Part shown: positions 44,149 to 64,000 of the stretch, piece after piece
Layout of the letters: each line of letters starts with the position of its first letter
Numbering within the stretch: position 1 is the stretch's first letter
Source: Antedon mediterranea
Lineage: Eukaryota > Echinodermata > Crinoidea > Comatulida > Antedonidae
Assembly: GCF_964355755.1 (NCBI RefSeq)
Contig: NC_092678.1
Location: 25,400,365-25,464,364, forward strand
Direction: 5' to 3'
DNA: 64,000 bases
Notes under the pieces: generated by a model
What the model was told of the DNA's origin: nothing
Databases searched by the model: none
Seen by the model: only the letters and a program-made list of their open reading frames with translations
Translations under genes and position numbers: made by a program

Positions 44149-45951
44149 TTACAGAGTACAAACCACGCAAGATAGCTCAAGATTATCTCCATACACCGAA
44201 CAATTCAATCCACCACCAGATTGATTGCATTTTCCCTCAACGAGGAACAACGTACTGGCTTCATCATCAGGAAATTGCGGACGGGCGCCATTACTATCAG
44301 GAACAACAGACTGGTTTTCATCAACGCATATGAACTCTGTACGCTTACGGTCGTCCCGAGAGGTCATTAAATATCCATCATATTCTTTAGTCCAACCGTT
44401 TGGACATTCTGTAACAGCTGGCATCATAAGTGTGACACTTCGTGGGGCTTGACAAACGGCACAAGGAACGTCATAATTGTGATTGTTCTTTAGCGGACTA
44501 AACTTCAAATCTCCGTACCTGTATTCTGTACCATAAACTGACCCTCTTTCGGTTTGAGATAATCCTACCGTAAACCTGTATTGTGGGTTGTCAGTCAGAC
44601 AGAGATAGTTTGCACCACTCCCACTTGAACCGTATGGTGGCCCTGCTGTCCTACCTAGGATTGTTAAGAGTTTTAAAATGCAGGAAATGGGATCATAGAC
44701 AATATAACAAATAAACAATATAGAAATTTAAAAGGAGCAATAATAATAAAATGTAAGAAAATACAACAAAAGCAAAATCATGGATGGTTGAATTGGCAGT
44801 GATGATTCAATAAGGTTTAATTTTATTTATTAAACCTTGTTTAAAGGGGTAACAAAGAAAAACAAAGAACTAAACAATTTACCTTTGTAGATCAATTCCG
44901 CAGTATTAGGACAGTTGGTACGCCCCCAACGAGTGAATAGAGTAATTTTAGTAGACTCAGGAACTGTGGGAACAAAGTAACAAAAACATGTAAATGTTGT
45001 ATTGATACTAAATACACAATTTATGATTTAATTTTTATTGAGGGCTTTGAATGATATAAAGACTGTGCTTGCCTCTGTGGTGTACCACAAAACATCTGAA
45101 CAAGCTAACCCAGCCTGTGCTTGCCTCTGTGCTGTACCACAAAACATCTGAACAAGCTAACCCAGCCTGTGCTTGCCTCATGTGCTGTACCACAAAACAT
45201 CTGAACAAGCTAACCCAAACCTTCCCTTTTGTATAAACTAATTTAAGACTAAACAAAGCAGCAATAGATGTTACTTTGTTTTAAAAATCTAACCCTACTG
45301 TTTAAGGATGATGATAAAATATTATTTACGTTGCCTGTATCATTGGTGTTCTGATATTGTTATTCAATATACTGTCCTGGTATGAAGCTTACCTTTAATT
45401 TGTGAATTTGGACCCGGCTTTAACACGTTTTCCTAAATTAAAGGCAACAAAATTAATAATCAATAACAATAATTTTAACGTCACATGCATATATAAAGCT
45501 TTTCAAATTGCAATGACCTAGAACAAAGTATTGTGTCTGGAATCTGCCAAAATTGTGTCAAAAAATCTTCTACTATAAAGTGTGTCACAATGTTCCTGTA
45601 TTTTCACAATAAATCAAACATAACATCTAAGCTTGCAAATCGAAAACCCTATTATTCTCAGCTGATCACATCTAAACTTACTTCGATTCTCGTAAGATGC
45701 TCAATGAAGGATTTCTGTGACTGGATAGTCATGATACTGAAAACTGCTACTACAATACATACAAGAATGACACATGCAACGGCAATACCAAGTGAAACAT
45801 GGTGTTGCTTCTGCTGTACAACCACCACTTGTTTTCCAGGAGGAACTGTATCAACATCACTATATTGACACTTGGCTATTCCTTTCTCTGTACTCTGGGT
45901 CCCCTCATTGCTCATTACTTCCATATACATATTATTATCCATCTCTGCCAT
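44149..45951 (-). CDS. Paralogue A: type II membrane protein with C4 short-chain-collagen-like ectodomain
   Basis: Exons, 5' to 3': 45951-45682, 45432-45393, 44963-44883, 44654-44149; in frame, 298 aa. The cytoplasmic tail carries YMEV and YSDV motifs. One hydrophobic helix (HVSLGIAVACVILVCIVVAV) follows, without a signal peptide, so a type II orientation is inferred. The ectodomain has TRWGRTNCP, GSGANYLCL, VPCAVCQAPRSV, CPNGW, FICVDEN and LSCVVCTL. These match the C-terminal non-collagenous domain of the short-chain collagen C4 family, known from sponges and other invertebrates. No Gly-X-Y triplets are present, so it is not itself a collagen. It is divergently oriented to B, with 838 bp between the two start codons. 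The ligand and function are unknown to me. Confidence 0.85.
45060..45218. repeat. Approximately 59-bp tandem repeat, under three copies
   Basis: TGTGCTTGCCTCTGTGCTGT and CACAAAACATCTGAACAAGC recur about three times in the second intron of paralogue A. Confidence 0.8.
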
Positions 45952-46789
45952 TCTTTGATTCTTTTTGTTGTTTGTCTGTCCCCACTAACAGTATTTATAC
46001 AAACAGCTAAACCGCATATTGAGGAACATCAAACTATTTAGCCTAATTTATAGGTAATAATGTGTAATTACTTATTGTACGTAGATTTTTTGTTTATACT
46101 ACATTAAAACAATGGATTTCCTCACTTCTACTAAAATGACCACAACACATTTTTTTTAAAGAGTTTTAATAACACACTAAAATGTGGTATATCAAGATTA
46201 AATTACTAGTTGGCATCTGTACATCCGTAGATTAATTTCCGATCGGATATTTGACACAAATTGAAATAAATTCTCAATTTTAATATACAATAATATCAGT
46301 TTTTGTTTGTTTTCTATGAAACATAATTTTGTGGTTCTTCTACAGGTAATGATTAGTTTTGATATAAAGTTTGCGGTACAGTATATTATAAAACTGGAGA
46401 ACGATCAAAGCAGAATGGCGTGATGTCTGAGTCTCGGTTTGTTTTTTTTTTGGCATGGTTGGAATGCCTTTTATTGTATTAGTTTATGTACAGCGCTAGG
46501 TTTCACAACATTAGGCGCTATATAAATCTAGGATATTATTATTATTATTATTATGTAGTACAATACTAACAGTAGTAAATTAAAAATCAATAATTAATTT
46601 CTTAGAAGGATGATGTTAATATAATATTTAAATAATAATTAATGGTTAATATTTCAAATATAATTGTATTACAGTATGATTATTAATAGATTTTTGTTTT
46701 ACGATTAACACATTTGTTCTTGAACCTGCTTCTTTGCTGTTTGTAGAACTACGTCTGTACTGCCTAAGGACAAACAACATAAGGAGGAA
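45952..46789. promoter_or_regulatory. Divergent intergenic region between paralogues A and B
   Basis: 838 bp between the head-to-head start codons. It contains a decayed retroposon end (46453-46556: CAGCGCTAGG, GGCGCTATATAAATC and a TTA tail). About 200 bp before B (from about 46620) are shared with the C and D upstream regions, including TTACGATTAACACATTTGTT. A shared promoter is possible but not shown. Confidence 0.5.
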
Positions 46790-48392
46790 ATGACACAGGA
46801 GGAAAATGTGTATATGGAAGTAATAGCCGGTGAGGAGATACAGAGTACAGAGAAAGGAATAGGCAAGTGTCAATATAGTGATGTAGATGCAGTTCCTCCT
46901 GGAAAACAAGTGGTGATTGTACAGCAGAAGCAACACCATGTTTCACTTGGTATTGCCGTTGCATGTGTCATTCTTGTATGTATTGTAGTAGCAGTTTTCA
47001 GTATCATGACTATCCAGTCACATAACGTAAGTGGGGTGCAATTATGACAGAAAACATTACAATACCTGTAAGTAGTATTGACAGCATGTTGTTGACAATG
47101 GTTACTAATGATGTACATGTAGTAGATCAGACAGTGGTTGTAAAAACAGGTTACCTATGTCAAGTACATAATTGACTAGATATAATAGAAATAACTTAAA
47201 CCAAATTTTAACATCTTGTATATTATAATATTTTTTTTGGCTTTAATCTAGGAAAAAATATGTTCACAAACTAAAGGTAGGCTTTTTTATACCCGTAAAA
47301 CACAATATTAAATAAGGTAAATAAAGGTTCAGCCCCTAGAATATGACAGTTTTAATTAATTAGCTGAGATCTTTTCCTCTTCAATAATATGAATGTGAGT
47401 GGCCGAGTGCTTAAAGACAGTGGAACCGTAACCCGGCCATAACATCGGCAGGGGTTCGAGGCTCACTCACTCTATGGTCTTCTCAGATATAAGAACTATA
47501 AACCGTATTTCCAGTGTACACACATGGTGTACATGGTCAACCAGTGTGGGGATCAAAACCCAGAATCGCAAATAATTTTGTATTAAAATTTAAATGATAA
47601 CAATTTTTTAAATTAATTTATAGTTTATACTTTATACACACGTTGGGGGCGCATGGATTGTCCAAGTACTGCTGAATTAGTATACAAAGGTATTTAAATA
47701 AAATGTTTTATTTAAAAATAAAATTGTAATTTTTGAAAAAATATCATGTTATTTTGAATATTCATCAGAAGATGATACTATGTCTTTGCAGAACATTGTA
47801 AATGATACCTATCAAAGTTTTGAGGTAATATTATATTGTATTATAATCCAATATTTAGGGTTTATTTATATTTCTAGGTGTCATGTCTGGTGCACCACAT
47901 ACCGGTAGTAATACTGGGAGTGGTGCAAACTATCTTTGTTTACCTGACCAACCACGATACAAATTCACAATGGCAGGCTATCAAACCACAAGGGGATCAA
48001 TCGCTGCTGTGGAATTCAGAGAATCAACAAAAATGTTCCAACCAACAAAAAAACTCCATGGTTTAAACTTTCCTTGCGCCGTTTGTCAAGCCCCACGAAG
48101 CGTCTCGTTACTTTTGCCAGCGGATACCGAATGCCCAATTGGTTGGATTACAGAGTTTAGCGGATACATGATGGCTTCTAAAAAGAACGAAAAACGTGCA
48201 GAATACGTCTGCGTAGATGAAAGTCCATCTTACATAAAGGGTAGACCTAATGCCGGTGATGCGGATGGGGTATCGGCCAGCTTTCTATTTCTTGTTGAGG
48301 GCCGATGCAATGCAGAAAATGTAGTTGGAGGGTTGCCTTGTCCACCGTATGTTGATGGTTATGAGTTGACTTGTGCAATTTGTACACAGTAA
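46790..48392 (+). CDS. Paralogue B: type II membrane protein with C4 short-chain-collagen-like ectodomain
   Basis: Exons 46790-47026, 47252-47276, 47624-47689, 47878-48392; in frame, 280 aa. Cytoplasmic residues 1-50 carry Y8-M-E-V and Y29-S-D-V. The transmembrane helix spans about 51-75. The ectodomain has TRWGRMDCPSTAELVY, GSGANYLCLPDQP, FPCAVCQAPRSV, ECPIGW, YVCVDES, EGRCN, LPCPPY and LTCAICTQ, giving at least ten cysteines. Exon 2 is very short (25 bp). The sequence from before exon 1 through about 49451 is repeated almost exactly as copy C, 2,662 bp downstream. The intron between exons 2 and 3 carries a SINE-like insertion. Intact by inspection. Confidence 0.87.
47395..47560 (+). mobile_element. 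tRNA-like (type II, Ser/Leu-style) SINE in paralogue B
   Basis: GTGAGTGGCCGAGTGCTTAA resembles a Ser/Leu tRNA A-box arm, and GGGGTTCGAGGCTCACTCAC contains a B box and a 3' acceptor pairing with GTGAGTG. The SINE body TCTTCTCAGATATAAGAACT and CCAGTGTACACACA follow. Present at the same place in C, absent in D. Confidence 0.6.
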
Positions 48393-49451
48393 TTTACTTT
48401 CCTTCGACACTGTATTGGTGATACTGGTGTCATAAGGTCCAATTTGTATTCTTCATTTTTATTGGTTTGTTGCAAGGGGTCTTGCGCAAACTTGTGTAGT
48501 TTGTACTCTGTATAAATTCACCTCTTGGAAGTTAACCTCTATAAATAACGAATATCATACTGCACTTTCTTAAAAAGATGTATATAATAGAATTTTGATG
48601 GTAAAGGTAAAATATTTATTCTGGTTCTCAAGCTTAAATTTGGGTTAGGCCTTCTGCGGACCCACAGCAGCCTACTACTTTGTTTGGCTATCTCCCATCA
48701 GGCTTCCCAGGATCTGTTCCATAGTGCTAAACAAATGTTTGATACAGTATAAAAGATTATAGGCCCTACAGGCATAGTCTAGCCTAGTAATAATAATGCT
48801 ATTTCCAGGTGCACTAGACTGCTATGAATTATTTAAAATGTTTTTTATATCTTGTATGTTTTCTATATCTACATGCTTTTCTTGCTTTGACATAATATTT
48901 TGTTTACTATATCATTAACAAAGTTATTAAAAAATTTCTGACGCAAAACCACTATTTTCATAAATTGTTTTTATTGTTTTACAATAAAATATGAATAGTT
49001 AAACACCTTTAAAAACTTGATAAATACCACAACAAAATTGGTCTTTCTATGGACCAGAGATTCCGAAATAAAGGATTGAATTGAATTGAATTATCGCAAT
49101 TAAAGAAAACACTAACCACTCTATTTCAAGTTGTTTCAGAAATAATATCCATATACCGGTACCTTTAAAAAACACATGAACACTGGCGTCTCTTAGACTC
49201 CAACAGAAGACATTTTAAAGGGCATTAAATTGAATTCGGTGTCAATGTTATTTTGTTGTGACTATTAATATTTTATGTATTTCTTAGAAGGATGAGTGCT
49301 TAATATTTAAAATATTATTGTTTTAAAGTATTACAGTATGATTATCTAAAAATGTTTGTTTTACGATTAACACATTTGTTGTTGAACCTGCTTCTTTGCT
49401 GTATGTAGAACTACGTCTGTACTGCTTAAGGACAAACAACATAAGGAGGAA
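48393..49451. other. Intergenic spacer B-C, repeated after C
   Basis: 1,059 bp with no gene. It recurs after copy C (57304-58362) with the same length and, by eye, almost no differences. Contains an old retroposon-like tail (GATTCCGAAATAAAGGATTG followed by AATTG repeats near 49065-49090). Confidence 0.8.
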
Positions 49452-50056
49452 ATGACACAGGAGGAAAATGTGTATATGGAAGTAATAGCCGGTGAGGAGA
49501 TACAGAGTACAGAGAAAGGAATAGGCAAGTGTCAATATAGTGATGTAGATGCAGTTCCTCCTGGAAAACAAGTGGTGGTTGTACAGCAGAAGCAACACCA
49601 TGTTTCACTTGGTATTGCCGTTGCATGTGTCATTCTTGTATGTATTGTAGTAGCAGTTTTCAGTATCATGACTATCCAGTCACATAACGTAAGTGGGGTG
49701 CAATTATGACAGAAAACATTACAATACCTGTAAGTAGTATTGACAGCATGTTGTTGACAATGGTTACTAATGATGTACATGTAGTAGATCAGACAGTGGT
49801 TGTAAAAACAGGTTACCTATGTCAAGTACATAATTGACTAGATATAATAGAAATAACTTAAACCAAATTTTAACATCTTGTATATTATAATATTTTTTTT
49901 GGCTTTAATCTAGGAAAAAATATGTTCACAAACTAAAGGTAGGCTTTTTTATACCCGTAAAACACAATATTAAATAAGGTAAATAAAGGTTCAGCCCCTA
50001 GAATATGACAGTTTTAATTAATTAGCTGAGATCTTTTCCTCTTCAATAATATGAAT

Positions 50057-50222
50057 GTGAGTGGCCGAGTGCTTAAAGACAGTGGAACCGTAACCCGGCC
50101 ATAACATCGGCAGGGGTTCGAGGCTCACTCACTCTATGGTCTTCTCAGATATAAGAACTATAAACCGTATTTCCAGTGTACACACATGGTGTACATGGTC
50201 AACCAGTGTGGGGATCAAAACC
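50057..50222 (+). mobile_element. SINE-like element in paralogue C (copy of 47395)
   Basis: Same sequence and position as in B, carried along by the 2,662-bp duplication. Confidence 0.6.
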
Positions 50223-51460
50223 CAGAATCGCAAATAATTTTGTATTAAAATTTAAATGATAACAATTTTTTAAATTAATTTATAGTTTATACTTTATACA
50301 CACGTTGGGGGCGCATGGATTGTCCAAGTACTGCTGAATTAGTATACAAAGGTATTTAAATAAAATGTTTTATTTAAAAATAAAATTGTAATTTTTGAAA
50401 AAATATCATGTTATTTTGAATATTCATCAGAAGATGATACTATGTCTTTGCAGAACATTGTAAATGATACCTATCAAAGTTTTGAGGTAATATTATATTG
50501 TATTATAATCCAATATTTAGGGTTTATTTATATTTCTAGGTGTCATGTCTGGTGCACCACATACCGGTAGTAATACTGGGAGTGGTGCAAACTATCTTTG
50601 TTTACCTGACCAACCACGATACAAATTCACAATGGCAGGCTATCAAACCACAAGGGGATCAATCGCTGCTGTGGAATTCAGAGAATCAACAAAAATGTTC
50701 CAACCAACAAAAAAACTCCATGGTTTAAACTTTCCATTAGGAGAACGAGCCCTATTTAGCGTGAGCTTTTGCCTCTGGCATCTTACTTGTTTATTTTTGC
50801 CTAAAGCCAGTCATTAATGTCTTAGGCAATTAATAAATCACGTAACACCTTGTTCATCTTCCAGGCTCAGCCTTCCTTGCTTCTGATTGGCTGCAATGCA
50901 CAGCCTATTTTGGAATTGGTCACTCATTGTATTTAGAAACCACCATTATACCATGGGTAAATTTTTTGCACACAAAATTAAAGAATGCAAGTGGCCTTGT
51001 GGTTAGCAAGGTCAGTTCTAATCTAACAGCAGGGAGCCAAAGAATGAACTGTAGAGATGAGTTTAAAATAAAAATTTGTGTTTTGTGCACCCAGACTAAA
51101 ATCGCTGGAAAAGCAAAAACTTTTGTTTTGAAATTAAAACTATATTTATAAACTATTTCATGTTCTTCAGCTGAGATCTCAAAATGATCTCTATGGATTT
51201 GCCACCCCTCTAATGTTAAATATATAGGCCTATAATAAATAGTACAGTAATACTATTTCAAATTATAAGCAAACAATTAAATACTGTATTTTATAATCAT
51301 ATTTTATATAATAGTTACTTTATGTCTCAATTATAAACCCCTTTTCTTGAGTATACCCCAATTGTATGCACATTTATGGAGGAAATATATATTTATGTTT
51401 TTCTCAATACATAATAGTTCAGTTTTTTTTTCACATTAATGTGAAATTTGTTTGTCTAAG

Positions 51461-52764
51461 CATGGATTAAAGAATAGAAGGATATGCATCGACGTGAGAT
51501 CAAGGGTTCCTTGACTCTCGCCGACAGACCGCGGACCGCCCACAATGTTACAGTTTAATTAACCGCATGGTAACAACGAAACGGTCGCGTGCCTAATATA
51601 TTGTTTACTGCACATGTGCAACGACATTTAACCTTGTTGGCTACTACGCTTCTTTCGCGCGTTCTTTGGTGGCATGATGTTTGTAGATGGTCAACTATTG
51701 ACTATGTTGGTTTCTGCCGCGATTGATCTACGCTAATGATTTTTTTATGATGATTAAAGTAGCATTTTATGACCTGTAGTAGCCCTACATCTGAGACAAT
51801 AACTATTAGTTGTCTCATTTGTTGTAAAATTACAAAATCAGCAAGAATGCTAGCCTAGCTAGGCCCAGGCCTTGTACTAACTAGGCTAAACTGGGCTAGT
51901 AAACCCTATGATTTGCCGACATTGATACTGCCTAGGTAGGCCTAGGCTAATCTTAAATACTCACCGTTGTCTTACTTCTTGTGTGAATAATAATAATAGG
52001 TAGGCCTACTTCGTTTGTTCGTGATCAAGTTTGCCCTGCGTGTACTTTTCAAAACGACCGCTAGGTAACGAATCGCAACTATACATAGCCAGCCAATCCC
52101 GGATCAGGGATCGCTGTTTTCATTCAATTAGGCCCGGTGATTGGATGTGATGTGGATGACATAACCACTAGCCAATCACCAGGCACTACAGTTTAAATAT
52201 AATCACATCGATAATTAAGGAGATTTATGAAGAAACCACTGCTTAGCCATATATTAAAAAACACGATTGTTGTATGTCTGAACACCGGCCACGCTAACAA
52301 CATACATGGTCAAATGCATAATTTAATATTCTATAGATTAACGCAATTTTTAATGACAGAAGATGGCAGGCAAATAATGATAATTCAAATATAAAAATGG
52401 CATATTTTATTAATATTACCAACTACCTAAAATTACCAGTCGTAAGAAAGTGAACTTTTCGTAGTCCGATTGTGATGAAACTAAAACAGAATTATTCAGC
52501 AATATATGTTTGTTATCAATTAATCATCGACGCAGACATGTCAATAGAACATTCAGACTGCGCATACGATTTCTACATGGTTACGTTTTGGTCTCAAAAA
52601 ATGTAACAGTTGATTCGCAGCGTTTTACAGAGGGCCGCGGTTAGAGACACGGAGTTCAATGAACGTGTTTGTTTGATTGGCAGCAGTGCTTTAGTATAGG
52701 CAAGCGCGTTGTAAAATCGTTTGATGTCACCGTCGATGCATATCCTTCTATTCTTTAATCCATG
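51461..52764. repeat. Long-range inverted repeat inside the insertion
   Basis: CATGGATTAAAGAATAGAAG and the 14 bases after it (51461-51494) recur perfectly inverted at 52731-52764. The 1.3-kb enclosed region has no recognised gene. It may be a nested element or a segmental inversion. Confidence 0.7.
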
Positions 52765-53186
52765 GTCTAAGTTGTGTGAAGTAATGATACCAAAAATGTT
52801 AACTCCTAATTGTAACTCCTGAATTGTAATCAATAGATTAGGTCTAAGTAAATATTAAAAAATGGTTGTTAATGTTACAGATGGAACATTTTTGTTATAG
52901 GCCAGGATATCATTATTTTAACGATTAACTAAAAAATCAGATACTGTAATTAATACACTGAATAAAATCTGTATGCATGTTATATATTTATTTTAATTTG
53001 AAAATTAACAATTGCCATGTAAACATATATTATGGGCCTAATTTGAATTAAATTTTATAGAGTATATATTCTTAAAAAATTCCTGTCCGTTAAAAAACAA
53101 GGCCAACAGCCATTAAGTCGCGTGCTACAATGCATAGTGATACCGGACCGACCGACAGACAGACCGACAGACCGACTGACATAGGG

Positions 53187-53993
53187 CGCGTTTATACAAC
53201 ACGCTATTACACGCATATTCTACACGCCTACGAGAAGTGTGTTGTATAACAACAAAGAGATTCCGTGTAATGAGATTTTAATTGCAAAAAAGGCTACTTG
53301 GCTGAATCCTAAAATTTGGTGGATTCCCGGTCGCCGTTACCGTGTTGGAAGTGTCCTCAGGGTATATTTTGACCGCTCGTTAAAACAGGTCGTAATATCA
53401 ATCATGTCATGCGACGTCTAACAAGATTGGGCCCATTTATTGCTGCTTCGCTGCCAGCAATCATCCTCCTACCACGTCTTACGCCTAGCCTGGTTGGGCC
53501 AACCAACTCGTAGTGGTAGTAGGCCTCTATAGACTATCGTTTCCCACTCCAAACAGAATAAAAAATAACATCGCAAAAATGGCATCTTCTTCCATAGTGT
53601 ATAGATGAAATAATGAAACCCTTAAAATAACTTTTATTAATTTAAATGAACCGAGAACAAATAAACAACAATGCAAACGTGAACGAATACAATAATGAAA
53701 ATGGTAAAAACCGCGCGAATACATCGGACAGCGAGGAGAGGCGACGATGATTGTTGCAGGGAGTTGTTGACAACTCCCTGATTGTTGACAACCCAGCCAA
53801 CAATTCAATTCAAGCGATCAACGATTTGACCTTTTATCCTAGCATGCACTGCGTGTTGATGAAACTTCCGGTACAACACGGTATCGTGATTTCTAGTATA
53901 ACAGCAAACGTTAAGGTGGGTTGACCTCGGTCCGAACAACACGCTAAAAATTAAAGCCGTGTTCAAATTTAGGGTGTTGTATAAACACGACCA
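53187..53993. mobile_element. Nested TIR element with ATA flanks
   Basis: Left end GGGCGCGTTTATACAACACG, right end TGTTGTATAAACACGACC in inverse. Flanks read GACATA and ATAGTGAAC, while an uninterrupted second copy of the flank (CTGACATAGTGAACTA at about 54600) shows the empty site. That implies a 3-bp ATA duplication of about 0.8 kb. The length of the target duplication and the ends suggest a PIF/Harbinger-like MITE, with low confidence. Confidence 0.6.
53757..53780. repeat. CAGGGAGTTGTT hairpin, copy 1
   Basis: CAGGGAGTTGTT followed by GACAACTCCCTG, a near-perfect 24-bp palindrome. The arm recurs at 56385. Confidence 0.65.
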
Positions 53994-54796
53994 TAGTGAA
54001 CTACTGAACATGTGTAAAAATGTTGAAATGTTTAAAAACATTTATATTTTTTTAATTTACACGTGCGTAGCCTGTCACTTTTGACGTGCTCATATAACGT
54101 AATTTCTAGTTGAAAAGTAAGTCAAGAAAACAGAAATCGGGCAAAAAGAGTGCGCAATAACATTTAACGCGCAGTGCGCGCGCAAAAATCTGCGCACTCA
54201 TGGCAATTTTGTAAACGCTTAAAATTGCCTGAAACGTACTCTTATTTCATCGAAAATAAATTTTGAAAATTTTAAGCGCGCGTACGCATGCGTTACATGC
54301 GCTACGCACGTAATTGTATTGCCATATAATGATTTATGCCCTGAAATTTATGAGTACCAAATTTTATTTAATTGTGATTCATGGTTGTGAAGATATGATT
54401 ACAAACGTGATTTCGTTAAATCGTGCGTAGACCGCGTAATTTTTTATTGCGCACCGTGAAAACATAACCACATCGATTCCTGGCCATAAGGAATATACTG
54501 TGAAAAATTGACTTAGCTAGATTAAACTGATATCAAGATAAGGTCAGAAAGCGATAACATGCATGGTGATACCGGACCGACAGACAGACGGACCGACCGA
54601 CTGACATAGTGAACTATAGAGTCGCGTGCACGCGACTAAAAATGTGAACCTGCATAATGCGATAAAGTATTGTTGGCACATATATTAAATCCCGTCACAG
54701 TATTATCTTGTATCCTTTAACATTTGGAATGAGTTGGTGCATGGTAAGATATAGGAATATGGATTATGAAGGGGATGAAAAAACGTGAAAAAGATA

Positions 54797-55620
54797 GCAC
54801 AATTTCTCAAATAGGTATACCGTACGTACAATTTCTCAAAGAAGTAGCACAACTTTCGTAATGGATTGCACAATTTCTCAAAGAGGTAGCACAATTTCCC
54901 GAATGGTTAGCACAATTTCTCAAAGAGGGAGCACAATTTCTCAAATGGTTAGCACAATTTCTCAAAGAGGTAGCACAATTTCCCGAATGGTTAGCACAAT
55001 GTCTCAAAGAGGTAGCACAATTTCCCAAATGGTTAGCACAATTTCTCAAAGAGGTAGCACAATTTCCCGAATGGTTAGCACAATTTCTCAAAGAGGTAGC
55101 ACAATTTCCCGAATGGTTAGCACAATTTCTCAAAGAGGTAGCACAATTTCCCAAATGGTTAGCACAATTTCTCAAAGAGGTAGCACAATTTCCCGAATGG
55201 TTAGCACAATTTCTCAAAGAGGTAGCACAAAATCTCCCGAAAGGATTGCATAATTTCTCAAAGAGGTAGCACAATTTCCCAAATGGTTAGCACAATTTCT
55301 CAAAGAGGTAGCACAATTTCCCGAATGGGTAGCACAATTTCTCAAAGAGGTAGCACAATTTCCCGAATGGGTAGCACAATTTCTCGAATGGTTAGCACAA
55401 TTTCTCAAAGAGGTAGCACAATTTCCCGAATGGTTAGCACAATTTCTCAAAGAGGTAGCACAATTTCCCGAATGGGTAGCACAATTTCTCAAAGAGGTAG
55501 CACAATTTCCCGAATGGTTAGCACAATTATTTCTCAAAAAGGTAGCACAATTTCCTGAATGTTGCATATTGCACAATTTCTCAAAGAGGAGCACACTTTC
55601 TCAAATGTAGGTAGCACAAT
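54797..55620. repeat. 21/42-bp dimeric minisatellite
   Basis: Alternating 21-bp units GCACAATTTCTCAAAGAGGT(A) and GCACAATTTCCCGAATGGTT(A), about 38 units in all. Because 21 is a multiple of three and the units lack stops in two frames, long ORFs appear on both strands (up to 155 codons). They have no start context and no non-repeat extension, so I treat them as repeat shadows. Confidence 0.9.
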
Positions 55621-56384
55621 ATTTCGTGATTGTATGACCACAATTGTACTGGGAAGGTTTTAAACTATATTTAAAAAAATCACAGTGTGCAGAGGTTAGA
55701 GGGGTTGGAGGCTTAGTGATTTGCTGGGGTTAGTATCAATGACCACATGAGTAATGTGAACTGGGGGTATGTTTTAACTGCATTTGAAAACCGTCATAAA
55801 GCCGGGGTGTGCAATAGAATTTGTACCAGGAAGTTTAACATTATAAGTTAAAAAATCCCCGAGTGCGGGTGTGTGTTGGGGAGGTGGGTGCATTTTAGGG
55901 CATCTGGATAATGAGTTATCAAATGATCGGGAATGTACTGTGAAGTTTTAAAACTACATAGGAAACCCGCCCGGGCGTGTATAATTGCTAGTCATCAATG
56001 TTTTAAAATACTAGAGTGCTAAAGTGAACATAATGTATGTAGGCCTATGTGCAGTTTTCTTAGAATAACATAAACAACTAAAATGAGGCATAATCCCTCT
56101 ATTATAATATCGTATAACATCAACTTGTTATTACACAATAAAAAAGATTGTTATTTATATGGGTTTCGTTTATGTTTATTAACATTCATTCAATTACATT
56201 TTTTTAAATAAAAAGATTTATTTTTTAGATTTTTTAGTATTATTAATTAATTCATATATCTGGTCCTATATACTAATATAGCGCAAACACTTTTTGGGAA
56301 GCGTATGGGTACCACCCCCTACGGCTACATTATTTTATTTGAATTTCCCGCTCATATTCTCAAAAATTGTAGGCCTACCTATAC

Positions 56385-56414
56385 CAGGGAGTTGTTATTA
56401 ATAACAACTCCCTG
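56385..56414. repeat. CAGGGAGTTGTT hairpin, copy 2
   Basis: CAGGGAGTTGTTATT followed immediately by AATAACAACTCCCTG, a perfect 30-bp palindrome. Confidence 0.75.
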
Positions 56415-57303
56415 CCTATACCTCAGCCCGAGTCTGATGTGATGGTGTACCTCTTGACATCCCTACCAAATCCCATCGCACCATCCCAGTTTATTTCAGA
56501 ATCCATTTGTAGTAGGCTATGTATTTCATTGGTAAATTAATAAAATTAAAATTATTCAATTGTAATTGGTTGATCGCTTGACTACTCAATCTAAGGTTGA
56601 ACTTTGTAGCTCCCCATACAATGTTGTTAAAATGTACAAAATCGAAAAGGAAACATGGAAATAAAGGCTTACTTAAATAATTATAAGGCGTGAAAAGGCT
56701 ATTATATAAATATTCATTTATTTCATGAAATCAAACTATTACCTAATCATTAAAACATGCTGTAACTGAAACCTGATGCTGTCGGTGATTGGCTGTTGGC
56801 AAACAAAGTGGGCTTGGCCTCTTTTAGTACCCAGATACTTTCCTGCATGATTGATGGCCACTGTTCTGTTAATTACCCATCAACAAGACTGATCAGGGTC
56901 AAAACAATTACAGGCAATTATAGTACCCCGGGTTAGGCGGGGTACTAAAAGCTCACGTTAAATAGGGCTCGTTTTCCTAATGCCTTGCGCCGTTTGTCAA
57001 GCCCCACGAAGCGTCTCGTTACTTTTGCCAGCGGATACCGAATGCCCAATTGGTTGGATTACAGAGTTTAGCGGATACATGATGGCTTCTAAAAAGAACG
57101 AAAAACGTGCAGAATACGTCTGCGTAGATGAAAGTCCATCTTACATAAAGGGTAGACCTAATGCCGGTGATGCGGATGGGGTATCGGCCAGCTTTCTATT
57201 TCTTGTTGAGGGCCGATGCAATGCAGAAAATGTAGTTGGAGGGTTGCCTTGTCCACCGTATGTTGATGGTTATGAGTTGACTTGTGCAATTTGTACACAG
57301 TAA

Positions 57304-58362
57304 TTTACTTTCCTTCGACACTGTATTGGTGATACTGGTGTCATAAGGTCCAATTTGTATTCTTCATTTTTATTGGTTTGTTGCAAGGGGTCTTGCGCAA
57401 ACTTGTGTAGTTTGTACTCTGTATAAATTCACCTCTTGGAAGTTAACCTCTATAAATAACGAATATCATACTGCACTTTCTTAAAAAGATGTATATAATA
57501 GAATTTTGATGGTAAAGGTAAAATATTTATTCTGGTTCTCAAGCTTAAATTTGGGTTAGGCCTTCTGCGGACCCACAGCAGCCTACTACTTTGTTTGGCT
57601 ATCTCCCATCAGGCTTCCCAGGATCTGTTCCATAGTGCTAAACAAATGTTTGATACAGTATAAAAGATTATAGGCCCTACAGGCATAGTCTAGCCTAGTA
57701 ATAATAATGCTATTTCCAGGTGCACTAGACTGCTATGAATTATTTAAAATGTTTTTTATATCTTGTATGTTTTCTATATCTACATGCTTTTCTTGCTTTG
57801 ACATAATATTTTGTTTACTATATCATTAACAAAGTTATTAAAAAATTTCTGACGCAAAACCACTATTTTCATAAATTGTTTTTATTGTTTTACAATAAAA
57901 TATGAATAGTTAAACACCTTTAAAAACTTGATAAATACCACAACAAAATTGGTCTTTCTATGGACCAGAGATTCCGAAATAAAGGATTGAATTGAATTGA
58001 ATTATCGCAATTAAAGAAAACACTAACCACTCTATTTCAAGTTGTTTCAGAAATAATATCCATATACCGGTACCTTTAAAAAACACATGAACACTGGCGT
58101 CTCTTAGACTCCAACAGAAGACATTTTAAAGGGCATTAAATTGAATTCGGTGTCAATGTTATTTTGTTGTGACTATTAATATTTTATGTATTTCTTAGAA
58201 GGATGAGTGCTTAATATTTAAAATATTATTGTTTTAAAGTATTACAGTATGATTATCTAAAAATGTTTGTTTTACGATTAACACATTTGTTCTTGAACCT
58301 GCTTCTTTGCTGTTTGTAGAACTACGTCTGTACTGCTTAAGGACAAACAACATAAGGAGGAA
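57304..58362. other. Intergenic spacer C-D, copy of 48393-49451
   Basis: No gene. Same length (1,059 bp) and nearly identical text as the B-C spacer, which fixes the duplication unit at 2,662 bp. Confidence 0.8.
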
Positions 58363-59943
58363 ATGACACAGGAGGAAAATGTGTATATGGAAGTAATAGC
58401 CGGTGAGGAGATACAGAGTACAGAGAAAGGAATAGGCAAGTGTCAATATAGTGATGTAGATGCAGTTCCTCCTGGAAAACAGGTGGTGGTTGTACAGAAG
58501 CAACACCATGTTTCACTTGGTATTGCTGTTGCATGTGTCATTCTTGTATGTATTGTAGTAGCAGTTTTCAGTATCATGACTATCCAGTCACATAACGTAA
58601 GTGGGGTGCAATTATGACAGAAAACATTACAATACCTGTAGTAGTATTGACAGCATGTTGTTGACAAAATATGATTACTTAGTAGATCAGACAGTGGTTG
58701 TAAAAACAGGTTACCTATGTCAAGTACATAATTGGCTAGATATAATAGAAATAACTTAAACCAAATTTTAACATCTTGTATATTACAATACTTTTTTTGG
58801 CTTTAATCTAGGAAAACATACGTTCACAAACTAAAGGTAGGCTTTTTTATACCCTTCAAACACAATATTAAATAAGGAAAATAAAGGTTCGGTCCCTTTA
58901 CAAATCTCATATATTTATTTATTATTTATTTACTTGATGTGTATAGAAGGCTGCTATGAATGCTAACCCTAAAAAAAGAAGACCAGGCTCCTATGCTGGG
59001 TTGTAAATGGGACTAAAATTTGCTTTGCAAATTGTCCCAGCTTAGGTGGAGCTAGCAGTCAGAGCATGATGTTGTGTGATCTGTAAAACTGAATAATTGG
59101 TTGTCTTGTTGTTTGACTTGAAATCAATTTAAAAAAAATGATCAGTCATGGTCGATCAGCGAGGGGATCAAAACCCAGAATCGCAAATGATCTTGTATTA
59201 AAATTTAAATGATATTAAATAATTTTGTTAATTTATAGTTTATAGTTTATACACACGTTGGGGGCGTATGTATTGTCCAAGTACTGCTGAATTAGTATAC
59301 AAAGGTATTTAAATAAAATGTTTTAAAATGTAATGAAGATACTATGGCTTTGCAGAACATTGTAAATAATACTTATTAATGTTTTGAGGTAATACTATAG
59401 TCCAATATTTAGGGTATATTTATATTTCTAGGTGTGATGTCTGGAGCACCACATAATGATAATGGGAGTGGTACAAACTATCTTTGTTTACCTGACCAAC
59501 CACGATACAAGTTCACAATGGCGGGCTATCAAATCACGAGAGGATCAATTACTGCTGTGGAATTCAGGGAATCACAAAAAGACTTTAAACCAACAAAAGA
59601 TCTCCATGGTGTAAACTTTCCTTGCGCCGTTTGTCAAGCTCCACGAAGCGTCTCGTTACTTTTGCCAGCGGATACTAAATGCCCAATTGGTTGGATTACA
59701 GAGTTTAGCGGATACATGATGGCTTCTAGAAAGGACGAAACACGTGCAGAATACGTCTGTGTAGATAAAAGTCCATCTTACATAAAGGGTTCAGATAAAC
59801 CTGATGGTGATGCGGACTGGGAAATGGCCAGCAGGCTATTTCTTGTTGAGGGCCGATGCAATGCAGAAGCTGCAGTTGGAGGGTTGCCTTGTCCACCTTA
59901 CGTTGATGGTTACGAGTTGACTTGTGCAATTTGTACACAGTAA
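58363..59943 (+). CDS. Paralogue D: type II membrane protein with C4 short-chain-collagen-like ectodomain
   Basis: Exons 58363-58596, 58812-58836, 59239-59304, 59432-59943; in frame, 278 aa. Same layout as B: YMEV and YSDV in the cytoplasmic tail, the transmembrane helix, then TRWGRMYCPSTAELVY, GSGTNYLCLPDQP, FPCAVCQAPRSV, CPIGW, YVCVDKS, EGRCN and LTCAICTQ. It is missing one Gln in the VVVVQKQ stretch. The ectodomain differs from B at scattered sites, mostly in the first 40 residues and around the KGSDKPDGDADWEMA loop, while exon 1 is almost identical. That uneven divergence suggests gene conversion or a recombination breakpoint in exon 1 or intron 1. The second intron has different insertions from B and C. 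Intact by inspection. Confidence 0.87.
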
Positions 59944-62002: not shown

Positions 62003-62168
62003 TACTGTAGAACCCCCTCTTAGGGACCCCCTATAAGGGGACACTTTCTAGTTAAATAAACAATGGATAATAGATGTTTTAAAACTAGGGCCAACTGCTA
62101 TTCAGGGGACACCTCTCTTGTTGTGGTTTCAAAGGTGTCCCCTTACAGTACCAACGGTTCTACTGTAT
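62003..62168. mobile_element. pogo/Tigger-like MITE
   Basis: Ends TACTGTAGAACCCCCTCTTA and CCAACGGTTCTACTGTA are inverted partners with TA at both outer borders, as expected for Tc1/mariner insertion. Inner GGGGACAC segments also pair. Confidence 0.65.
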
Positions 62169-62213
62169 CTGCCAACCTAAATCCATTGGTATAAAACTAA
62201 GTAAGTGACTTAC

Positions 62214-64000
62214 CACTCCACATGCTCTACAATGGTGTCTACGGCGTGTCAGCCCAAAATCAAGGGCGCACCGCATACACATGGTTGCTTCGTCATCTCG
62301 TATCCATCGAGGCGCACGCAAACCAAGATGAAAACTGTCCTCACCCGATTCGGTTACTGGCCGACTGTCCGTCTTAAAGAAAAAAATAAATAAAATTATT
62401 TTTTAAACACAGTAAAAATAAAGTGCTCTATAAACACAACCAAAATTATTATTTCAATGTATTTTAAAATTGTAAAACAAATAGATTTTTAACAATTCTA
62501 CATTGTTGAAAAAATAAATCAAACTTACTTCATCTTTATCTACTGATAACGCTTTAAACGTCTCTTTTCTTCTTAACAATTCTTGTATTGCACCGAGTAT
62601 TGCCTGAAATAAATGTCAATAAAAGTTGGTGAATCAAATTCATGACTCAGAAATAGAAGGAGTAGGCACATAATACAATTTGCTGTTGGTAAATACAATG
62701 TATAAAGTATCAAACCCCTGTTGCATCTGAACCTCTATTAAGGGGTGGGAAGATAATAATAATTTAGGTATTTGTATAGCACCAGAATCAACTAAACTGA
62801 AGTAAAAATCAAATAAAAATATTGGATGTTAAAAAGATGCCGTTTAAGTTCTTTTTTTTAAAAATAGCAATAGAAGTTGATTTAGTAAAATGACGAGGGA
62901 GAGAATTCCAAAGAGAAGCAGCAGAGAGGCCTCAGGCGTTTTTTAGCTTCTTTTACATATTCTAATGCCTGTTTTTCCTCTCTTTTTCCCATGAGCTTCG
63001 AAGCGCCTGGGTTTAGCCAGTGAGTGCTCATAGCCGTTACACCACTGGAAGGATATCTTTGAGATACCTTCACAGTCCTTGTTTGTTTCTCAGGTATGTC
63101 TCCCCTTATTACTGGAATGTTCCAATGATCTTACCCTCATCCATGATTCTTTCTCATCATCTGAACTCCCTTGTAACTCCAAAGTCTTTTGTTTGCTCTC
63201 AAGTCTAAATGTATGGTCATATTTGCTGTTTTCTCCATCAAAAATCTAGAAATATTATACAGTTACATTATTAAAAGTTTTACAATACTACTTTATGTTT
63301 CTGAAGAAAAGTATAAAATACAACATTTTAGTTTTCCCATAATAATGGCATTTTGAAAAAGAAATTATAAAATTGAAGCTGGGGTATATCCTGTCTTTAA
63401 TGAGGGTCGGTGGGTCAAGAAAGTTAAGTCATTAACTTATTAATATTGTTTAATATTTTATGAGGATAACAGGCAATCTAAACATATTTTATAACTTTTT
63501 TCAGACTTTAGGCCGAAGAAAGAGAAACATAAAAAGGAGAAGCTACACATGGGCAATACCATACATCATTGAGGGCCTCTTCAAGTCAGCTGTACTGCTG
63601 TAGTACAACTGTTAAGGCTACCCTTGTAAAACATAGTTGAATAAATAAAATAAATAAATACCTTCATTCCATCGATGTCTAACCGAGCCTTCACTTTGTA
63701 ACTTGACGTTCCTCCTGTGATTAGCTTTCGATTCTGAGTGCAGAACAGGACATCATTAAACTGAAATTAAAATCAATTGGTTAATTCAAGAGGTCATGTT
63801 TAATTCCATGGTATAGTTTTAATTGCAAGCTTGGCTTTCTATTGTCGTATGTTTAATTCCATGGTATGGTTTTCATCGCAAGCTTACTGTTTGCGCGTTT
63901 GTAGAGATGGTGCGGACTAGCGAACTTAAGTACCACTTACCAGGAACAGATATCGTTCCTGTTGGTCACCACTTCTTGCTGCTATCTTTGTGATCTTTCC
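62214..64000 (-). CDS. FGD-type RhoGEF, PH and FYVE region (partial, 5 exons visible)
   Basis: FGD proteins are Cdc42 guanine-nucleotide exchange factors with DH, PH, FYVE and a second PH domain. Exons, 5' to 3': 64000-63941 (continues off window), 63760-63662, 63245-63135, 62603-62529, 62372-62214. All junctions are phase 0. The translation reads through a PH domain ([64 protein letters not shown]) into a FYVE finger: [13 protein letters not shown], and the signature [10 protein letters not shown]. This resembles FGD1/2/4. The last visible exon ends just after CRACGV, so the second half of the FYVE finger, the C-terminal PH domain and the stop must lie at lower coordinates but were not recognised. 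The catalytic DH domain is off the right edge. Confidence 0.88.
63570..63661. repeat. Retroposon 3' tail shared with 28526-28590
   Basis: GAGGGCCTCTTCAAGTCAGC, TTAAGGCTACCCTTGTAAAA and an AAATAAATAAATA tail, in the FGD intron next to exon 63662-63760. Confidence 0.55.

Follow-up and report, generated by a model that had tools for sequence, protein, structure and literature searches.

Predicted membrane-anchored relatives of spongin short-chain collagens in a young tandem gene cluster of the crinoid Antedon mediterranea

Three intact genes, A on the minus strand and B and D on the plus strand, lie with an interrupted copy, C, at 44149–59943 of a 64,000-bp window (C9:25400365-25464364, contig NC_092678.1, assembly GCF_964355755.1) within the 354-Mb genome of the crinoid Antedon mediterranea; feature positions below follow window numbering. 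We regard it as fairly probable that these genes encode membrane-anchored derivatives of spongin short-chain collagens (SSCCs) that are devoid of a triple helix and act as adhesion or recognition proteins at the cell surface.

Gene structure and ectodomain

Gene structures were predicted from the DNA by open reading frame (ORF) calls and a splice-site search, which together gave four coding exons per gene in the window copies (Table 1), not the two of the original prediction, in which the linker exon 2 and the part of the ectodomain encoded by exon 3 had been overlooked. Exon 1 codes for a cytoplasmic tail and a transmembrane (TM) helix and ends in phase 0 in the copies examined, while exon 2 is a short linker of 25 nt in B–D and 40 nt in A (length 1 modulo 3). 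Exon 3, the 'TRWGR..CP' exon, measures 66 or 81 nt, has phase-1 introns at both sides and belongs to the ectodomain, to which it contributes the tenth domain cysteine; exon 4 is a long domain exon of spongin/C4 type that runs to the stop codon. Splice phases agree among the copies examined; gene A is predicted to encode a protein of 298 residues, B one of 280 and D one of 278. Assignment of the tail to an unrelated, separate gene was rejected, because all tail exons of the cluster but that of copy F precede the same exons 3 and 4. No Gly-X-Y run of three or more was found inside the window genes, and none of five or more in the whole window on either strand, which confirms an ectodomain free of Gly-X-Y and leaves no Gly-X-Y exon within these genes.

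The proteins are predicted to adopt a type II single-pass membrane layout with the N-terminus in the cytosol. The sole hydrophobic segment is strongly hydrophobic and lies ~50 residues from the start, and is therefore too deep for a usual signal peptide; the cysteine-rich domain comes after it. The single TM segment (predicted) and the tail motifs YMEV and YSDV (Y8 and Y29 in B), all anticipated from the unspliced sequence, were recovered in the ORFs.

Judged by its cysteine pattern, the ectodomain is the known SSCC NC1-type domain. In spongins, seven cysteines are reported to occur also in collagen IV and a further three to be specific to spongins, while HSQ is lacking (PMC5395295). The same count of ten and the same absence of HSQ were obtained when exons 3 and 4 were spliced in A, B and D, and in the domain of a relative on C11. 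Nine exon-4 cysteines are invariant in 22 paralogues. A domain search of the ectodomain, suggested with the original prediction, gave no match in Pfam, and profile searches against the PDB placed collagen IV NC1 chains at the top as the only coherent match, with weak E-values (0.06–0.65). Alignment with hhalign to this genome's two collagen IV NC1 domains reached a probability of 87 over 36 columns at the CAVC..CP.GW..GY core. The short-chain-collagen C4-type identity first proposed for the ectodomain is supported for A, B and D. None of the window proteins and 22 paralogues matched Pfam C4 (PF01413) above its curated cut-off, and Pfam and NCBIfam searches of these proteins assigned no family; in the genome as a whole PF01413 found only two loci, both on C5 and both true collagen IV genes. 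To us the sequence suggests a domain with two NC1-like lobes (CP..LVYKG / LCLP / CAVC, then CP.GW..GY / VCVD / CAIC), and under this reading exon 3 would be integral to lobe 1.

Relatives with Gly-X-Y repeats

A further 29 domain matches were found on C5, C6, C7 and C11 and elsewhere on C9, some of them being pieces of one gene. The layout of a type II anchor followed by an NC1-type domain is common to relatives in the same genome. Genes on C6 have a related helix exon, ending in HLTRNE, and a tail without YxxV. The relative on C11 (~2.724–2.731 Mb, minus strand) would be a membrane spongin collagen of type II orientation, whose short tail lacks tyrosine ahead of the helix. In 5' to 3' order its exons are that of the helix, one with KRRRR, two with Gly-X-Y, the RWGR exon and the domain exon. 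The RWGR and domain exons are the same two NC1 exons as in the window genes, with matching intron phases (1/1), and the Gly-X-Y block is bounded by phase-1 introns at its start and end, so that a gene without it would show the same succession of phases as the window genes.

The window genes are therefore probably helix-less derivatives of membrane-anchored SSCCs that arose by loss of the Gly-X-Y block. The ancestor would have resembled the C11 gene (type II anchor, stalk, RRRR, Gly-X-Y, NC1) and would have lost the phase-symmetric block. A receptor or recognition family in place of structural collagen, as first proposed, is conceivable, but since a relative with the same exon order carries Gly-X-Y, we class the window genes as derived membrane collagens and not as an unrelated receptor family. 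Further clusters of the same domain family were seen on C5 and C7, and the N-terminal exons of these paralogues were not found in the flanking DNA examined.

Exchange of exon 1 and the tail motifs

The sequences show that conversion or unequal exchange has recently transferred exon 1 from one gene to another, because synonymous divergence (dS) between A and B is 0.04 in exon 1 as against 1.28 in the ectodomain exon, and because the pairing of exons is mosaic in three copies. The ectodomain of A is nearer to the C6 genes (dS 0.7–0.8) than to B, while its exon 1 is B-like; copy E joins a B-like ectodomain to a G-like exon 1, and copy H a B-identical exon 1 to a D-like ectodomain. The helix-coding DNA of A and B is identical over ~100 bases, while matched stretches downstream of the helix are 72–78% alike, except for two of ~30 bases near 84%. 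Among the cluster copies exon-1 dS does not exceed 0.15, with the exception of J. The tail and helix are indeed nearly invariant between A and B–D, as had been noted, but this reflects recent exchange and not proven constraint. Since the tails were shared so recently, and since the chance of four chosen positions all being invariant is ~11% (21 of the 51 tail columns vary), conservation of the YxxV motifs is weak evidence of function, and its interpretation as a sign of signalling constraint is unsupported.

Across the ectodomain the ratio of nonsynonymous to synonymous divergence (omega) is 0.24–0.43 between clades and higher, at 0.14–0.84, between close copies (broken K excluded). The proportion of nonsynonymous differences (pN) is below that of synonymous differences (pS) around the cysteine core. 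In an ectodomain loop at alignment columns 121–146 pN exceeds pS in all three pairs, an excess that is not significant (Fisher p 0.13–0.18, loop versus rest); diversifying selection on this loop was considered and set aside.

The motifs read NVYMEV and CQYSDV in B–D; A shares the second and has NMYMEV as the first. Every intact tail except that of J retains the two tyrosines together with their +3 valines, whereas J, a copy with an open ectodomain, has lost both YxxV motifs. The pair is confined to the cluster, and its absence from the C6 and C11 membrane relatives, together with its loss in J, tells against the defining role originally given to it. Were the two tyrosines phosphorylated and bound by SH2 domains, or used for sorting by AP-2, these proteins would be signalling or endocytic receptors comparable to type II C-type lectin receptors. 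We consider this unlikely. It would account for the retention of both motifs, for a tail that is intracellular under the predicted topology, for an acidic +2 and a hydrophobic +3 residue that suit some SH2 domains and formally fit the AP-2 signal YxxPhi, and for the loop excess. However, the tails have been shared too recently for constraint to be visible, the motifs are missing from J and from the anchors on C6 and C11, and the loop excess is not significant. The consensus of the immunoreceptor tyrosine-based activation motif (ITAM), YxxL/I-x(6-12)-YxxL/I, is not matched, since the +3 residue is Val and 17 residues separate V11 from Y29, and neither, in the window copies, is that of the inhibitory motif (ITIM), (I/V/L/S)xYxx(I/V/L), with N and C at −2. 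The only formal fit to ITIM is SMYIEV, the first motif in E, G and I, three copies that lie beyond the window. It is likewise doubtful that the cluster comprises lineage-specific, collagen-derived receptors in which the triple helix was lost, a two-tyrosine signalling tail was gained and tail exons were shuffled among diversifying NC1-type heads.

Another improbable reading is that the hydrophobic segment is cleaved during or after secretion and that the domain forms part of an ordinary spongin-type matrix, the proteins being secreted or shed. PMC5395295 and PMC12549020 present the described spongin family members as matrix collagens, and the RRRR site of the C11 relative could free its ectodomain, but the linkers of the window genes contain no RxxR furin-like site, the helix lies too deep for a signal peptide of the usual kind and the Gly-X-Y repeats are missing.

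Extent and turnover of the cluster

The cluster extends beyond the window over ~80 kb (C9:25,444,519-25,524,606). Tail searches gave at least 11 exon-1 places and one fragment, and ectodomain searches at least 11 copies (12 matches, C counted twice), these counts being lower bounds as the stretches read did not span every gap between copies. The tail search returned no convincing protein with this tail outside the cluster. Exons 1, 3 and 4 are open in eight copies (A, B, D, E, G, H, I and J), with exon 2 of G and I unmatched by the search pattern used. Four copies are broken, namely C, K (stops), L (without an intact exon 1) and F (an exon 1 whose ectodomain was not found). That the many copies are merely decaying by-products of tandem duplication with no distinct function would agree with four broken copies in 12, but is very unlikely given the open exons kept in eight copies, the ectodomain omega of 0.24–0.43 between clades and the low pN around the cysteine core.

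The four window copies had been described as alike, which applies to A, B and D, whose ORFs contain the motifs, helix and ectodomain. Copy C is not counted as intact because its exon 4, which stops at 50734 and picks up again at 56983, is split by a 6.2-kb element whose 36-bp inverted ends show 94% complementarity. The first 166 bases of this element match 18 other places full-length at 95–100% identity, at most of which a paired inverted end lies ~4 kb away, and the element is therefore repetitive and recently spread. The copy within C is longer than these ~4-kb copies and holds a tandem array (54828–55528; 42-bp unit, 16.6 copies, 92% matches). The offset between B and C is 2662 bp, and a single base distinguishes their exon-1 coding sequences. 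The recent duplication expected from the start is supported. From what can be traced in the sequences, copy turnover comes from tandem duplication, exon-1 shuffling or conversion, and one mobile-element insertion. Copies G and I (C9:25483348-25485087 and 25508207-25509964), ~25 kb apart, are identical in their ectodomain exons and in the exon-1 coding sequence compared, which would point either to an assembly artefact or to duplication in the very recent past. At the window edge, an ORF on the minus strand (62160–62402) matches a FYVE zinc finger (E 5e-11) and represents a separate gene.

Table 1 Predicted exons of the window copies and the element inserted in copy C (window numbering).
Feature	Positions	Strand	Basis
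Gene A exon 1: tail (YMEV, YSDV), TM helix, HLTRIE juxtamembrane, phase-0 donor	45682..45951	-	ORF, sequence, alignment
Gene A exon 2: 40 nt linker ENVLKPGPNSQIK, phase 0 to phase 1	45393..45432	-	sequence, splice search
Gene A exon 3: VPESTKITLFTRWGRTNCPNTAELIYK, phase 1/1, first cysteine of NC1-type domain	44883..44963	-	spliced-domain comparison, splice search
Gene A exon 4: spongin/C4-type domain to stop	44149..44654	-	ORF, spliced-domain comparison
Gene B exon 1: tail (Y8 MEV, Y29 SDV), TM helix	46790..47026	+	splice search, alignment
Gene B exon 2: 25 nt linker EKICSQTK	47252..47276	+	splice search
Gene B exon 3: VYTLYTRWGRMDCPSTAELVYK	47624..47689	+	splice search, spliced-domain comparison
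Gene B exon 4: spongin/C4-type domain to stop	47878..48392	+	ORF, spliced-domain comparison
Copy C exon 1	49452..49688	+	splice search
Copy C exon 2	49914..49938	+	splice search
Copy C exon 3	50286..50351	+	splice search
Copy C exon 4, first part, interrupted	50540..50734	+	ORF, sequence
6.2-kb element with 36-bp inverted ends inside copy C exon 4; holds 42-bp tandem array	50735..56982		repeat searches
Copy C exon 4, second part	56983..57303	+	ORF, sequence
Gene D exon 1: tail, TM helix	58363..58596	+	splice search
Gene D exon 2	58812..58836	+	splice search
Gene D exon 3: VYSLYTRWGRMYCPSTAELVYK	59239..59304	+	splice search, spliced-domain comparison
Gene D exon 4: spongin/C4-type domain to stop	59432..59943	+	ORF, spliced-domain comparison

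A proposed role at the cell surface

Under the preferred reading, that of helix-less SSCC derivatives in adhesion or recognition, the genes would yield type II single-pass proteins of ~280–300 residues, in which a cytoplasmic tail of ~50 residues and a single helix are joined by a short linker to an extracellular disulphide domain from exons 3 and 4. In collagen IV, NC1 domains form trimers and also pair up with those of adjacent molecules. The NC1-like heads would self-associate at the cell surface for adhesion or recognition, and the tail might, more speculatively, recruit adaptors via its two tyrosines.

Several points weigh against this reading. The adhesion or recognition role is taken from family membership, and the gene products are predicted from the DNA. 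The topology follows from hydropathy and an assumed extracellular location of the cysteine-rich domain, while the charges on either side of the segment almost cancel out and are of little help. The PDB sequence matches are individually not significant, and an AlphaFold model of the exon-4 domain with 22 paralogues reached a predicted local distance difference test (pLDDT) score of 30, which leaves the fold without independent confirmation. The direction of change, loss of Gly-X-Y in the window genes as opposed to its gain on C11, is suggested by parsimony within this one genome. If the reading is correct, a series within one genome, from the type II form with RRRR and Gly-X-Y to helix-less membrane forms, would document a collagen head turned into a cell-surface module, by an evolutionary route that the matching exon phases make testable. 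The cluster is also a clear case of a young tandem family whose members have exchanged exon 1.

Comparison with known systems

Type II C-type lectin receptors have a type II anchor, an N-terminal tail that bears tyrosine motifs, and genes in tandem clusters. The window genes are alike in predicted anchor type, tail tyrosine motifs and tandem clustering, whereas their ectodomain is unrelated and their motifs miss the ITAM and, in the window, the ITIM consensus. The likeness to collagen IV NC1 is a weak, consistent match over the CAVC..CP.GW..GY junction, but the window domain has no Pfam C4 match, no HSQ and a partly different cysteine set. The MACIT membrane collagens (membrane-associated collagens with interrupted triple helices) XIII, XXIII and XXV are largely collagenous (PMC4678570). 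They have a type II layout and a short cytosolic tail, which the window genes would share if the orientation predicted from hydropathy and the position of the segment holds, and the C11 relative would resemble them further in its RRRR near the membrane and its Gly-X-Y. MACITs have no NC1-type globular head, and the window genes have no Gly-X-Y, interrupted triple helix or furin-like site.

The closest likeness is to the SSCC-related or 'short-chain collagen C4-like' proteins, a widespread invertebrate family according to PMC5395295 and PMC12549020, which cite Exposito 1991 and Aouacheria 2006. The C-terminal NC1-like domain with ten cysteines and no HSQ is shared, but members described there have a short Gly-X-Y stretch, and the window genes have none and add a predicted type II anchor with a 50-residue tail. 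Because this short Gly-X-Y domain is missing, we class them as helix-less SSCC relatives and not as collagens. The literature searched, which did not cover Aouacheria 2006, held no membrane-anchored spongin receptor and no invertebrate YxxV/ITIM precedent. The domain family is thus already known, and the helix-free membrane form with its shared, exchanged tail exon, for which we claim no priority, looks like an undescribed variant of it.

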